Source of the DNA: Hallerella porci
GTDB lineage: Bacteria; Fibrobacterota; Fibrobacteria; Fibrobacterales; Fibrobacteraceae
DNA length: 55,616 nt
Direction of reading: 5' to 3'
Assembly (NCBI RefSeq): GCF_003148885.1
Contig: NZ_QGHD01000015.1
Span: 1-55,616 of the forward strand
Under the pieces are notes generated by a model, which had not been told where the DNA came from, made no database searches, and saw only the letters and a program-made list of their open reading frames with translations. Shown here one piece after another: positions 381 through 55,467 of the stretch (position 1 is the first letter of the stretch; every line of letters starts with the position of its first letter). Made by a program: the position numbers and the translations under genes.

Positions 381-769
381 AGTTTCTCCAATGGACCCAA
401 ACAGAAATATTTCTGCAAAAAAGAAGTCCATTGTATTTAAACGCTCGAAACCCGAAAAAGAGGAAAAAATGGCCATTTTTCACACTTTTTTGCCCCGAAA
501 ATGGATAAGTCAATAATGGATGATTGGGAATTTCGCACTTTTTAATGTGCGAAATTTGTGAATTCACAATTTGTCCATTTGAAAATTTGGAGCCTTATTT
601 TGTTGCAAAATTTGGCCGTTTGAAAATTTTTGGGCAAATCTGGAATGCAAAATCTCTTCTTTTAATTTTTTGACGCTGAAAATTACTGCTAGATTCTACC
701 CCAAAGGGCTTAATTCAACTAAGGAACTAAAGTTCCAAGTTTCATATATCGCTTCGCTCAGAATGACAC
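381..769. other. Gene-free AT-rich spacer
   Basis: No convincing gene is seen between the divergent Rpn-type gene and the repeat array. Two perfect short palindromes stand out: a 16-bp one centred on GGCC at 465-480 and a TTGTGAATTCACAA-type one near 553-570. Near 745-769 is a GCTTCGCTCAGAATGACAC fragment. It resembles the dispersed 'gaatgacac' repeats at 28.1-28.3 kb. The short minus-strand frame here lacks a ribosome binding site and domain features. Confidence 0.5.
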
Positions 770-1063
770 GGGAAATTTCATTTCCAAAAATCCGGCGAAC
801 ATATTTCCCCCGGGAAATGTCATACCCAAAAATCCGGTGAACAAATTTCCTCTGGGAAATTTCATTTCCAAAAATCCGGCGAACATATTTCCCCCGGGAA
901 ATGTCATACCCAAAAATCCGGTGAACAAATTTCCTCTGGGAAATGTCATTTCCAAAAATCCGGCGGACATATTTCCCCTGGGAAATGTCATCTCCAGAAA
1001 TTCGGTGAACAAATTTTCCCCGAGAAATGTCATTTCCAAAATCTAGCGAACGAATTTGACATG
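770..1063. repeat. Tandem array 1: seven 42-bp units
   Basis: Units begin with GGGAAAT(G/T)TCAT at 770, 812, 854, 896, 938 and 980. A decayed seventh unit starts at 1022. Spacing is exactly 42 bp throughout. Each unit carries two small palindromes, GGAAATGTCATTTCC and, across the junction, ATTTCCCCCGGGAAAT. The array could therefore form a series of hairpins in single-stranded DNA or RNA. Because 42 is a multiple of 3, stop-free frames appear on both strands, which is not evidence of coding. The array lies between divergent genes, upstream of the GH43 gene. Confidence 0.9.
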
Positions 1064-18708: not shown

Positions 18709-20534
18709 AAAAGAACACCCTCATCGGTCTTATTCTCCTCGTCGGCCTGTTCGTTTGGTCGATGACAATGTCTACCAGCCGCGCTCAAGAAGCGCAAGCT
18801 GCAGCCTCTAAAAAAGCCAAATCCGAACAAGTGGAAAATGTCCGCAGCGGTTCTCTCCGGACTCCAGAACTAGCGCCGTTAGATTCTTCGAAACTTGTTC
18901 CGGTAACTCTTGCTCCGCAGACAGCGCCCGCAGTTGTTGACACGACGAAAGATTCTGCTGTCGTTGCCGAAGCGCCGATTGTCCGCAAAAAAGTGAAAAT
19001 TGAAAACGATCATTTCTCGGCGGTTTTCGATAATCAAGGTGCAAAAATTACAAGCATCGTCGTGAAAGCGTTAAAGGATTCCGCAGGAAATTTCCCCGAA
19101 ATCATTGCGGATACCGTCAAGGGTGCGCTCGGTCTTAAAATTGACGGCGTCGATCTTTCGGAACAATTATTCGCTCTCCCCGAAAATACTCCGGATTCCA
19201 TCTTTGCCGAAAACGAAACCACTTTGACTTTTACATTCAAAGATCCGAACGGCAACAAAGTCATCCGTCGCTATACCGTTTCGAAGTCGGATGTTTCGAT
19301 TAAGCAAGCGGTAACTTTCGAAGGCTTTAAGCCGAATGATTACGAAATCATTTGGGACGGCGGCATGAAAGAAACCGAAGAATTCCCGAAAGGTCGTAGC
19401 TTCGGCGGCGGCAGTTACTTCTTTAGCGAAGTTGTCTTCAATGACTTGGTGGGCGTCGAACGCGAAACTGTCCGCGACCGCGAAAAGTTTAATGAAGAAG
19501 AAGGAAAAATTCTTTGGGCAGGCATGCGCCGCAAATATGTCGCCGCAGTCATCAAATATCCCGAAGCTTCGGAAGCAACACTTTCGGCAGAACATTTCAC
19601 GGGAAAAGATGCGGATAGCAAAGACCCGGGCACCTATCGCATTACGCTTTCCGATAATTTGAACGGAAGCGATACGCTGGCATTTGACTTCATGGTTCTT
19701 CCGTTGAGCTGGTCCGAAATCAAAAGCTTTGATTTGGGATTTGAAAAAATTATCGTCAGCGGTTGGAGCTGGTGCGGCGCCGATGTTTGGTTCGTCGCTC
19801 TCTGCGGCTTTTTGCTTTGGCTCCTCAAATTCTTCTATTCCATTATCCCGAACTACGGCGTAGGAATTATCCTCATCACCATTCTCGTGCGCACGCTCAC
19901 GACTCCGCTTACATTAAAGCAGTTGCGTTCCACAAGCGGGATGAGCAAACTCAAACCCGAAATCGATGCAATCAATGTGAAGTATCGTTCGGACCCGCAA
20001 AAGAAACAAGCTGCGATTATGGAACTTTACGCGAAGAATCACATCAACCCGATGGCTTCGTGCACAGGCGGCTGCCTCCCGATGCTCATTCAGATGCCGG
20101 TATTCTTCGCGCTCTTCATGGTCTTCGGTCGTGCAATTGAACTTCGCGGAATGCCGTTTATCGGTTGGATTACCGACCTTTCTCGTTCGGATGTCATTTG
20201 GAACGGCATCACGATTCCGTTTATCATGCCCGACGGAATTGCGATTCTCCCGATTGTCATGGTCTTCACGACTTACTTCCAAACGAAGCAATCGATGGCA
20301 TCGATGACCGATCCTGCGCAACAAAAAATGATGGTGTGGATGATGCCCATCATGATGTTCCTCTTCAGCGCAGTGATGCCTTCGGGCCTTGTGCTTTACT
20401 GGATTATTTCGAACTTGTGGGGCATCGGCCAATACGCGCTCGTGAATCGCGCCCGCCGCAAAGCGAACGCGCAAGAATCCGAAATGCTCAAAGGCAAAAA
20501 AGTCCAAGACGCAGTCATCGTGAAAAAGAAATAA
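18705..20534 (+). CDS. yidC: Membrane protein insertase YidC
   Basis: This 609-aa protein inserts and folds inner-membrane proteins with or without SecYEG. The layout is TM1 at about residues 5-22, a linker, a large periplasmic beta domain (about 95-350), and the conserved core of five membrane helices (about 365-590). The core has GCLPMLIQMPVFFALF and MMVWMMPIMMFLFSAVMPSGLVLYW. The tail is basic (KKVQDAVIVKKK), as usual for ribosome contact. The start at 18705 overlaps the yidD stop. An upstream start at 18645 lies inside yidD and is not used. A terminator follows. Confidence 0.96.
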   Translation: MKKNTLIGLILLVGLFVWSMTMSTSRAQEAQAAASKKAKSEQVENVRSGSLRTPELAPLDSSKLVPVTLAPQTAPAVVDTTKDSAVVAEAPIVRKKVKIENDHFSAVFDNQGAKITSIVVKALKDSAGNFPEIIADTVKGALGLKIDGVDLSEQLFALPENTPDSIFAENETTLTFTFKDPNGNKVIRRYTVSKSDVSIKQAVTFEGFKPNDYEIIWDGGMKETEEFPKGRSFGGGSYFFSEVVFNDLVGVERETVRDREKFNEEEGKILWAGMRRKYVAAVIKYPEASEATLSAEHFTGKDADSKDPGTYRITLSDNLNGSDTLAFDFMVLPLSWSEIKSFDLGFEKIIVSGWSWCGADVWFVALCGFLLWLLKFFYSIIPNYGVGIILITILVRTLTTPLTLKQLRSTSGMSKLKPEIDAINVKYRSDPQKKQAAIMELYAKNHINPMASCTGGCLPMLIQMPVFFALFMVFGRAIELRGMPFIGWITDLSRSDVIWNGITIPFIMPDGIAILPIVMVFTTYFQTKQSMASMTDPAQQKMMVWMMPIMMFLFSAVMPSGLVLYWIISNLWGIGQYALVNRARRKANAQESEMLKGKKVQDAVIVKKK

Positions 20535-20547
20535 AAATTCAAAACGC

Positions 20548-20578
20548 AAAAGACGAAGGCAAACGCTTTCGTCTTTTT
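20548..20578 (+). terminator. Terminator of the rpmH-yidC operon
   Basis: AAAAGACGAA is paired with TTTCGTCTTTT around a short loop, followed by more T residues. It lies 14 nt after the yidC stop. Confidence 0.85.
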
Positions 20579-20767
20579 TTTGTGCCCAAAGTCGCCGAAT
20601 CTTATTCAGAAAAAATCCAAGGGGGAAAGCCTTCCCCTCGCGTAAACCGCGCGGCAAAATCGCCAAATAAAATCTCCGCCGCGCGTTTTCCGCTACCCCT
20701 TCTGCGGGGACACCCCGCAACGCCCCGAATTCAATGAGGCCGGTAGATGATGGCGCGCCGTAGTTTT

Positions 20768-20820
20768 GAGAACTTAGAGCTTAGAACTTTGATCTTAGAA
20801 ACTCTAAGCTCTAAGTTCTC
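20768..20820. repeat. Palindromic 'CTTAGAGCTTAGAAC' repeat, copy 1
   Basis: GAGAACTTAGAGCTTAGAA on the left is complementary to TCTAAGCTCTAAGTTCTC on the right, around a GATC-containing centre. Related copies are at about 26704-26770, 41010-41076 and 55183-55245. Here and at 41 kb it directly abuts the same end of a 42-bp array. Confidence 0.85.
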
Positions 20821-20836
20821 ATTCAGACCTGCGAGA

Positions 20837-21676
20837 TGCCATTTTACTCACCAAATGCGTCCTTGCACTTTTGCAAGGTGCCATTTTACCCGCCAAATGT
20901 GTCCATTCACTTTTGAAAGGTGCCATTTTACTCGCCAAATGTGCCTATGCACTTTTGCAAGGTGCCATTTTACCCGCAAAATGGGTCCATGCACTTTTGC
21001 GAGATGCCGTTTTACTCACCAAATGTGTCATTGCACTTTTGCGAGATGCCATTTTACCCGCCAAATGTGTCCATTCACTTTTGAAAGGTGCCATTTTACT
21101 CGCCAAATGTGCCTATGCACTTTTGCAAGGTGCCATTTTACCCGCAAAATGGGTCCATGCACTTTTGCGAGATGCCGTTTTACTCACCAAATGTGTCATT
21201 GCACTTTTGCGAGATGCCGTTTTACTCACCAAATGTGTCATTGCACTTTTGCGAGATGCCGTTTTACTCACCAAATGTGTCATTGCACTTTTGCGAGATG
21301 CCATTTTACCTGCCAAATATGTCCATTCACTTTTGCAAGGTGGCATTTTACCCGCCAAATGTATCCTTGCACTTTTGCAAGGTGCCGTTTTACTCACCAA
21401 ATGTGTCCATGCACTTTTGAAAGGTGCCATTTTACTCGCCAAATAGGTCATTGCACTTTTGAATGATGCCGTTTTACCCGCCAAATGTGTCCATGCACTT
21501 TTGAAAGGTGCCATTTTACCCGCCAAATGTGTCCATGCACTTTTGAAAGGTGCCGTTTTACCCGCCAAATGTGTCCATGCACTTTTGAAAGGTGCCATTT
21601 TACTCGCCAAATAGGTCATTGCACTTTTGAATGATGCCGTTTTACCCGCCAAATGTGTCTATGCAATTCTGCGGTT
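20837..21676 (+). repeat. Tandem array 2: twenty 42-bp units
   Basis: Units start TGCC(A/G)TTTTAC at 20837 and recur every 42 bp up to 21635 (nineteen exact intervals, no indel). Substitutions occur at a limited set of positions, for example TGTCCATGCAC, TGTCATTGCAC or TGCCTATGCAC. The last unit ends in a diverged GCAATTCTGCGG. The array is stop-free for long stretches in several frames on both strands because the period is a multiple of three. One frame would encode a Cys/His-rich 14-residue repeat, but no ribosome binding site supports translation. The same family occurs inverted at 40309-41008. Confidence 0.93.
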
Positions 21677-21678
21677 AA

Positions 21679-21747
21679 ATTCCCTAACCACTAATCACTG
21701 ACCACTAATCACTGACCACTAATCACTAACCACTAATCACTAATCAC
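21679..21747. repeat. Short tandem repeat, 14-bp unit
   Basis: About four to five copies of ACCACTAATCACTG or close variants lie directly after array 2. Similar CTATCAGTTGTTAG / CCACTATCCACTAT fragments occur at 9820-9885. Confidence 0.75.
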
Positions 21748-21820
21748 TTCTTTCGCGGGAATGTCAAATACGCCAAAAACGAAACCTTCGCGCTTTCCCC
21801 CCCCCGCCTACGGCGCGCCA

Positions 21821-23005
21821 TCATCTACACCCCCTCTTTTCTAATTCATCTCTTCTTATCGTATTTAAAATTCCTAAGACCAAGTAGAAGCAGGAAAGTA
21901 AAAAGAGTTTTAGCAGTTCGGGGGCGACTTCGGAAAAGGTAGCGCCGAGATTTTGAATTTCGAGCCAAGCGGGAATGGCGTAGGTCGAAGGAAATGCAAG
22001 CCCGAGTGCGCGAATCCAAACGGGCATATTTGAAATGGGCCAGCTAAATCCCGATGAAAAAAGGACGAGAATTGGAACGCTTGCAAAAATGGCGAGAGCC
22101 GATTCGCGGTATTTTAAGAATTGCGCAAAGAACATTCCCATGTTGACGACGCAGCCAAAGAAGATGAGCCCGAAAATGAAAACGAGCCAAGAATCGCCGC
22201 GGTTCGGAAATTCGAATACGTGATAAACGATGAATTTGTAAAAGAATAATGCGACGAGATAATGCAAAACGAAAGCGAGAGAACGCCCAAAGTAACGCGA
22301 AATCAGCGGGGCATTTTCGGTGTCTTCACAATTTTTTAGCAATTTGAATTTGCGATTTCTGCGGGCACCGCCCATGACGCAGACGCCGATTAAACAAGTT
22401 TGCTGTAAAATAATCATGAGCACAGCGCTGACCGCGTAAATGCCGTAGCCGCCCGATTGATTAAACATACGAAAGAATCGTGTGGGAATGGGATCGCGAA
22501 TGGCTTTGGCTTGGGCAACTGAATTGCCGCGTAGGGCGATGTGTTTGACTTGAGTTGTTGCGCCGACGGAGCCTGCGACCATTGCAAAAGAAGTCGCAAT
22601 ATTTCCGTAGAGAAGAATGAATGCGCCGTGGCAATAAACGCCGAGAGAAACATTATTCCCTTTTCGGAGTTCGGCTTCGGTGCCTTCCGGAATTTTTAAG
22701 TAGCAATAAATGGATTCGTCAGCGAGTAATTTTTGCGCTTCGGATTCTTGCGGGAGAACTGCGACGATTGTATCTTCTTGCGCGGCACTTGCCATCTGAA
22801 TGATTTGCCTTGACATTGCCGAATGATTTTCGTCGACAATAGCTGCGGGCGCTTTATTGGCAACTTCTTCTTTGTAAGGATACGGATAATAGAAAGCGTA
22901 TAAAAGAACGCCGACGACGATGATGAGCATGCACGCGGGATCGCGTAACATCGTGCGCCATTCGACTAAAGTAATGCGGAAAAATTGATTCACGAATCGG
23001 AACAT
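21821..23005 (-). CDS. ABC-2 type transporter permease (second of a pair)
   Basis: The 394-aa protein has one N-terminal membrane helix (about residues 24-42), an extracytoplasmic domain of about 135 residues, then five or six membrane helices (about 185-380). This is the ABC-2 (PF12698-like) layout of YhhJ/YbhR-type exporters. It overlaps the upstream permease gene by 16 nt, so the pair likely forms a heterodimer. The last codons (GCR and the stop) lie in the right inverted repeat of the neighbouring non-coding element. No nucleotide-binding domain is fused or adjacent. The substrate is unknown. YhiI-YhhJ relatives export drugs or lipids. Confidence 0.82.
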   Translation of the reverse strand: MFRFVNQFFRITLVEWRTMLRDPACMLIIVVGVLLYAFYYPYPYKEEVANKAPAAIVDENHSAMSRQIIQMASAAQEDTIVAVLPQESEAQKLLADESIYCYLKIPEGTEAELRKGNNVSLGVYCHGAFILLYGNIATSFAMVAGSVGATTQVKHIALRGNSVAQAKAIRDPIPTRFFRMFNQSGGYGIYAVSAVLMIILQQTCLIGVCVMGGARRNRKFKLLKNCEDTENAPLISRYFGRSLAFVLHYLVALFFYKFIVYHVFEFPNRGDSWLVFIFGLIFFGCVVNMGMFFAQFLKYRESALAIFASVPILVLFSSGFSWPISNMPVWIRALGLAFPSTYAIPAWLEIQNLGATFSEVAPELLKLFLLSCFYLVLGILNTIRRDELEKRGCR

Positions 23006-37055: not shown

Positions 37056-37097
37056 GTTAATGAGAAATTAGAAGAAACTCCTAAAAATCCGAAAAGC

Positions 37098-37382
37098 CCT
37101 CGGACAGCTCCATTTGATTTACTGGGAAGCTAGAAGAGGTCTCGGACAGTTCCATTTGATTTACTAGGAAGCTAGAAAAGGCCTCGGACGGTTCCTTTTG
37201 ATTTACTGGGAAGCTAGAAGAGGCCTCGGACGGTTCCATTTGATTTACTGGGAAGCTAGAAGAGGCCTCGGACGGTTCCATTTGATTTACTGGGAAGCTA
37301 GAAGAGCCCTCGGACAGCTCCATTTGATTTACTGGGAAGCTAGAAGAGGGCTTGGACAGTTCCATTTGATTTACTGGAAAGC
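37098..37382. repeat. Tandem array 3: seven 42-bp units
   Basis: GATTTACTGGGAAGCTAGAA recurs at 37116, 37158, 37200, 37242, 37284, 37326 and 37368, always 42 bp apart. Variation is concentrated in the CGGAC(A/G)G(C/T)TCC part. The minus strand has a stop-free frame giving a SSFPVNQMELSE-type 14-residue repeat, but no convincing start or ribosome binding site. The sequence is unrelated at first sight to arrays 1, 2 and 4, yet the period is identical. Confidence 0.92.
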
Positions 37383-37416
37383 TTTGTAAAATTTTCAACG
37401 CGATTTTTTTACGCAT

Positions 37417-40350: not shown

Positions 40351-41008
40351 GTGAGATGGTATCTCGCAAAAGTGCATGGACCCATTTTGCGAGTAAAATG
40401 CCACCTTTCAAAAGTGCATGGATCCATTTTGCGGGTAAAATGTCACCATTCAAAAGTGCATAGACGCATTTTGCGGGTAAAATGTCACCATTCAAAAGTG
40501 CATAGACGCATTTTGCGGGTAAAATGTCACCTTTCAAAAGTGCAATGACACATTTGGTGAGTAAAGCGGCATCTTGCAAAAGTGAATGGACACATTTGGT
40601 GAGTAAAATGTCACCATTCAAAAGTGCAATGACCCATTTTGCGGGTAAAATGCCATCTTGCAAAAGTGAATGGACACATTTGGTGAGTAAAATGTCACCA
40701 TTCAAAAGTGCAATGACCCATTTTGCGGGTAAAATGTCACCATTCAAAAGTGCATGGACGCATTTGGTGGGTAAAACGGCATCTTGCAAAAGTGCAGAGC
40801 CCCATTTGGTGAGCAAAACGGCACCTTGCAAAAGTGAATGGACACATTTGGTGGGTAAAACGGCACCTTTCAAAAGTGTATGGACACATTTGGCGAGTAA
40901 AATGTCACCATTCAAAAGTGCAATGACCCATTTTGCGGGTAAAATGCCATCTTGCAAAAGTGCAAGGACACATTTGGTGAGTAAAATGGCTTCTCGCAGG
41001 TTTGAATG
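40309..41008 (-). repeat. Tandem array 4: about seventeen 42-bp units, inverse copy of array 2
   Basis: GTAAAA-type unit starts at 40393, 40435 and onward to 40981 are exactly 42 bp apart. Two degenerate units (40309 and 40351) precede them. The reverse complement is the same family as array 2. Both arrays share their ends: GCAATTCTGCG in the terminal unit at one side, and CTCATTCA(G/A)ACCTGCGAGA plus a palindromic TAAGTTCT block at the other. The first decayed unit overlaps the antiporter stop codon. The array lies between the antiporter and glmM. Confidence 0.92.
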
Positions 41009-54846: not shown

Positions 54847-55467
54847 ACTTTAAGTTCTAACCTCGCGCCAAAGGCGCCATTCTTTTTAATTGAACATTTT
54901 TAAATGTTCGCTTGATCGTCGAATAATGCAATATGCCTTAACACTAATCGCTTTAGCGATTTTAGTGTTAGGAGCGTACTACCTAATTCCTAACTATTTC
55001 CGTCTCTACCTTCATCGAAGTCTCGGAGAACTTAGAAACGGTCGTCGCTACCTTCATCGGAGCGTCGGAGAAGCTTTTATAATGAGAAAAGTGATTCCCT
55101 TTTACTTTCGCAGAAGAGAAAGCCCGCGTGGATTCAATGCATAATTAGAGAGTTAAGCGCTTCGCGCGAGGAAATGCAAGATCTTAGAACTTAGATTTTA
55201 GAGCTTAGAGTTTTCTAAGATCAAAGTTCTCAGCTCTAAGTTCTCTTCTCCCCCGCGCGCCTACGGCGCGCCATTCCATTTCTGCCGCAGGCGGAGCACG
55301 GCGCAGCCGTGCGTACTAATTTCTCATTTCTAATTAGCCCGCAAGTGGTAAAGTAAACAATTTGTGAATAAACGGTTAAAAGTCGGAAATTTCTCCGTTA
55401 ACACCCCTAAAATAGTCGTTGCAAATAAAAAATAAGCAAAAAAAAGAAGAAATCTCGAAAAAAGCCC
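54847..55467. other. Gene-poor repeat-rich spacer
   Basis: No credible gene is seen. TAACACTAA-tcgctttagcga-TTTTAGTGTTA near 54937-54971 forms a hairpin. CTACCTTCATCG(A/G)AG(T/C)(C/G)TCGGAGAA occurs twice, at about 55007 and 55050, as a 43-bp direct repeat. At 55183-55245 is copy 4 of the CTTAGAGCTTAGAAC palindrome family, bracketed by GCGCTTCGCGCG and GCGCGCCTACGGCGCGCC. An open frame at 54890-55144 runs through these repeats without a ribosome binding site and is not called. Confidence 0.6.

Follow-up and report, generated by a model that had tools for sequence, protein, structure and literature searches.

We consider it likely that the stretch between yidC and a permease gene of Hallerella porci is an island of a genome-wide intergenic repeat mosaic, which would have proliferated within the species lineage and spread by recombination rather than by transposition of a unit bounded by 21-bp repeats. 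The modules of this mosaic are heptad arrays, a heptad hairpin (H), a 17-bp motif (M) and 42-bp minisatellites, and their order varies from place to place. We propose that slippage and unequal recombination lengthen and shorten the arrays. The modules may be spread by duplicative recombination, in which short repeats would serve for gene conversion or template switching, and not through transposition of a 21-bp-bounded unit.

Within the window (the whole 55,616-nucleotide stretch of DNA that was analyzed), yidC ends at position 20534 and is followed by its intrinsic terminator (20548–20577, plus strand; a 13-pair stem and a T-run in the terminator scan), which precedes the repeat island. A copy of M with an adjoining GTAG (20743–20763, plus strand) is succeeded by H (GAACTTAGAGCTTAG..., 20767–20821, plus strand), whose perfect 19-bp arms lie at 20767–20785 and 20803–20821. 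Then comes a 42-bp minisatellite array of about 20 units (20830–21664, plus strand; 19.8 copies over 20830 to 21659/21664), which belongs to family A of a diverged superfamily and contains an internal duplication of four units, such that units 2–5 recur as units 6–9. The array passes into an exit sequence (21665–21683, plus strand) that is also present at C10, C1:5494 and C1:153447, and in which TGCAATTCTGCGGTTAAATTCCC starts within the last unit. The island closes with an array of CTAATCA/CTAACCA heptads (21684–21748, plus strand) and the inverted copy of M with GTAG (21808–21828, minus strand). The sequence-only reading described this layout accurately as regards the exact 21-bp inverted repeats, the palindromic block and the twenty 42-bp units; its 14-bp repeat is present as well, with a true period of 7 bp. 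It also held that the right repeat provides the stop codon of the permease, an ORF on the minus strand that ends at 21821. The TGA (21821–21823) does sit in the right arm, and the remark is correct because the permease tail of G005, the nearest congener (its yidC is 83% identical), reaches a different stop, without M. We suggest that the island originated beyond the terminator of yidC and took the place of the permease's variable C-terminal tail; the stop codon would now come from the M copy at the end of the island.

The distribution of M bears directly on whether the 21-bp repeats are the ends of an element. With at most one mismatch allowed, the genome (2.85 Mb) contains M (GTAGATGATGGCGCGCC) at 12 places, a count that is far above chance; the reversed control gave 0. 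Ten of the 12 copies are single, which is what the sequence-only reading had named beforehand as speaking against its element, and several of them adjoin hairpins of the H family. The sole close pair is formed by the two copies of the island. By chance, about 0.05 pairs this close would be expected if the copies fell anywhere, and about 0.5 if they were confined to an intergenic fraction assumed to be 10% of the genome; the closeness of the two copies is only weakly surprising. GTAG extends the arms to 21 bp, after which follow GCCGTAGTTTTGAG on the left and GCCGTAGGCGGGG on the right (TTTTGAG on one side, GCGGGG on the other). At several places (C1, C7, C12, C16 and C43), M stands after the last unit or remnant of a 42-bp array and before a heptad hairpin, in the order array-CTTTTTAAATGAGAAAT-GTAGATGATGGCGCGCC-GGGG-TTTTGAGAACTTAGAG. 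M, which usually links the end of an array to an H hairpin, is one tile of the mosaic.

Further evidence comes from paralogous composites. The C10 composite, flanked by two predicted genes that are likewise convergent, aligns with positions 20753–21744 of the window at 80.5% identity over 1048 columns, and consists of a hairpin, CATTCAGACC, a 20.8-unit array, TGCAATTCTGCGGTTAAATTCCC and heptads. M is absent on both of its sides; therefore, the limits of a unit are not set by the 21-bp ends. The second family-A array of the window (C15:40367; 40367–40998, minus strand) is preceded by an H hairpin and likewise has no 21-bp ends. Together with the arrays at C43, C8, C1:5494 and C1:153447, it retains parts of the hairpin-array-heptad layout, and paired M was not found at any of these five. 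Hence, the earlier reading is supported in part: species-specific gain and the proliferation of modules in the genome stand, but the 21-bp repeats as bounds of a mobile unit are not supported. The long fixed module order common to the C10 and window composites counts against the mosaic reading and may be a sign that a larger unit has moved.

H is more abundant than M, with 36 genomic copies at up to 3 mismatches and none in 24 relatives. The copies have in common a hairpin core of about 75 bp, and their flanks are mosaic. Several of them are provided with inverted arms rich in GC and begin immediately behind the T-run of a terminator. Possibly, the mobile unit is a smaller REPIN- or MITE-like palindrome composed of H and its GC-rich arms, of which M would be one version, with arrays and heptads captured beside or inside it. 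We regard this as unlikely: the copy number of H, its restriction to the species and the position of the armed copies are all in its favor, but we found neither a sharp common boundary, as the flanks differ and the outer edges vary, nor an association with a RAYT. An insertion into the T-runs of terminators that duplicates the T-run was also considered and rejected; some cases are striking, but the edges vary genome-wide. Several repeat islands (e.g., C10, C16, C1:284303 and C6) start within 1–2 bases of an intrinsic terminator T-run (TTTTTTT-AATGAGAAATTAG). Elsewhere in the window (55000–55080 and 55180–55250), part of a different 42-bp-type repeat (TTCATCGG...CGGAGAA, also seen at C41:15243) stands beside an additional H hairpin.

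Comparison with relatives indicates that the repeats belong to this species. yidC and the permease gene are convergent neighbors in all five congeners, separated by 223 to about 1,900 bp, and the gaps of G005 and G001, read directly, contain no such repeats. When M, H and two arrays were searched against the whole genomes of 24–40 relatives (40 for M), no match was obtained, whereas the own genome yielded 12 matches to the yidC/permease array and 20 to a family-C array. With Tandem Repeats Finder (TRF), 23 period-42 arrays were detected in the 841 kb surveyed of this genome, part of which had been selected because it held matches, versus 0 in 628 kb of relatives. A pattern scan of GTDB contigs returned 21 stretches with one match each and no array, which is near a rough chance estimate; blastn against phages and plasmids found no match, and exact motif matches in viral contigs numbered four and three. 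The sequence-only reading had suggested looking for yidC-permease junctions without the insertion. The five congeners keep the junction, but their genomes have neither the motif nor the hairpin nor the array of the segment, which was therefore gained specifically in this species. The simplest reading would be that the repeats expanded after the species split from the sampled congeners. The intergenic DNA of the congeners is strongly diverged. In G001, the gap contains a small acetyltransferase-like ORF, which indicates that this junction changes often.

The 42-bp arrays are themselves heterogeneous. In a survey of 841 kb of the own genome, about half of which was chosen for holding matches, comparison of consensus units in register united 20 arrays into one superfamily, with joining links of 27–41 of 42 against a shuffled-consensus maximum of 23. 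Identity between families is about 50–60%, and the six family consensuses have in common TTT at positions 3–5, AAA at positions 14–16 and one G, with nothing else invariant; TTT-N8-AAA forms a dyad in the unit. The first 18 bp of family E are inverted in place, matching family A at 13–17 of 18 positions when inverted and at 10–11 when direct, and its second half matches directly at 16–23 of 24 positions; the register therefore survives inversion of half a unit. Units of this kind, with register and second half kept, were seen at C7:2807-3199 and C11:42898-43018. A family-C array of the superfamily (CATTTCCCGGGGGAAATTTG...) occupies 769–1057 (minus strand) of the window, and a seventh 42-bp array (GAAGAGGCCTCGGACAGTTCCATTTGATTTACTGGGAAGCTA, 37091–37383) shares the period and has no detectable relation to the superfamily. 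Four 42-bp arrays fall outside the superfamily, two of them inside predicted genes, and arrays of 45 bp, among other periods, are also present in the genome. A search of Rfam 15 gave nothing above the gathering threshold and sub-threshold matches only. As regards a hairpin in the 42-nt unit, the dyad is conserved, but we make no claim of covariation because differences between families may be the main source of the column-pair signals (the effective sample is about 17).

A length of 42 bp corresponds to about four helical turns. The arrays might thus be functional, each unit presenting its TTT-N8-AAA dyad on the same helical face, as a putative binding platform for an architectural protein. 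We think this quite unlikely, although 154 of 158 unit steps (about 97%) are exactly 42 bp, the other four being 41 bp, despite 843 substitutions from the array consensuses, and although TTT and AAA are invariant in the six consensuses and family E retains dyad and register. On the other side, no arrays were detected in relatives, some arrays have periods of 41, 43 or 44 bp, the gene context is mixed (convergent at the yidC/permease island and several others, tandem or divergent elsewhere), no such protein is known, and homogenization alone can hold a period. For the superfamily as a whole, we would give an equally small chance to the related idea that its sequence drifts while length and dyad are kept by a putative architectural protein that reads spacing and dyad rather than sequence. 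Plain neutrality has most difficulty with the near-constant period and the invariant TTT-N8-AAA, and both count against the mosaic reading. The island itself probably lacks a dedicated function, and we postulate that it persists because DNA past gene ends is weakly constrained.

A MITE-like, non-autonomous element, with the 21-bp inverted repeats as its ends, the minisatellite as cargo and a transposase acting in trans, is improbable. It would account for the perfect repeats that bracket the modules, for the multicopy state of the latter and for the congeners that keep the junction and lack the repeats. However, terminal inverted repeats bounding a unit at several loci were not found: M is mostly single, the C10 paralog is devoid of it, and no further array with paired M came to light. 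Nor did the search of all M places and of the Y1 family reveal a partner transposase. The single Y1_Tnp match in the genome, IS200/IS605-like (C33:2487-2816), lies more than 1.5 kb from any copy of H or M, and is not the RAYT flanked by the same palindromes that marks REPIN/RAYT systems; mobilization by a RAYT was rejected on these grounds. The surroundings of this gene look unlike the rest of the genome and were perhaps acquired or misbinned.

That the array is a transcription barrier, with units resembling weak intrinsic terminators between convergent genes, is highly improbable: the terminator scan called three units on the plus strand, and the yidC/permease island and several others do lie between convergent genes, but the T-tract has just four residues, the stems are weak, units were called on one strand only, and other arrays lie between tandem or divergent genes. 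A 14-residue repeat protein can be practically dismissed, even though 42 is a multiple of three and ORFs of up to 239 aa span the array, since, in every family, synonymous and nonsynonymous variants match the neutral expectation in all six frames, and the frame in which stops occur differs from array to array. The unit length is therefore no sign of coding, and the ORFs are repeat read-through, in agreement with the earlier description of the segment as gene-free and lacking a transposase.

Two copies of a dispersed motif in repeat-rich intergenic DNA can thus mimic an element, and the ends of a mobile element should not be called from inverted repeats alone. Of possibly greater value is a side result, namely that a single species harbors a large superfamily of 42-bp satellites that was not detected in its congeners. 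With its near-constant period and drifting sequence, this superfamily is well suited to studying how satellites originate and spread in bacteria and how their period is maintained. Among known systems, MITEs share with the island inverted repeats and the lack of an internal transposase gene, but here no repeated unit is bounded by the 21-bp ends, and these have no partner transposase among the Y1 matches. REPINs (PMC3116915), like REP/RAYT systems and BIMEs, are dispersed intergenic palindromes in many combinations. Here, in contrast, there is no REP doublet of fixed form, no RAYT flanked by modules was found, and tandem 42-bp arrays are not REP units. In cyanobacteria, the LTRR unit is 37 bp and the STRR unit 7 bp. 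Cyanobacterial LTRRs are located in intergenic regions (PMC2408588), and with STRRs they resemble the present case in combining long tandem intergenic arrays and 7-bp repeats in one genome; however, the unit here is 42 bp, of other sequence and from another phylum, and stands in composite islands with inverted motifs. MIRUs, which are dispersed minisatellites (PMC3635867), are similar in having arrays of one family at many loci; the present superfamily shows much greater divergence and is combined with heptads, hairpin and M. The tandem array lies in intergenic DNA and related arrays occur at many genomic loci, as in dispersed intergenic minisatellites. The best reading would be a dispersed, recombining mosaic of minisatellites and short repeats, comparable to MIRUs or to the cyanobacterial LTRR/STRR.
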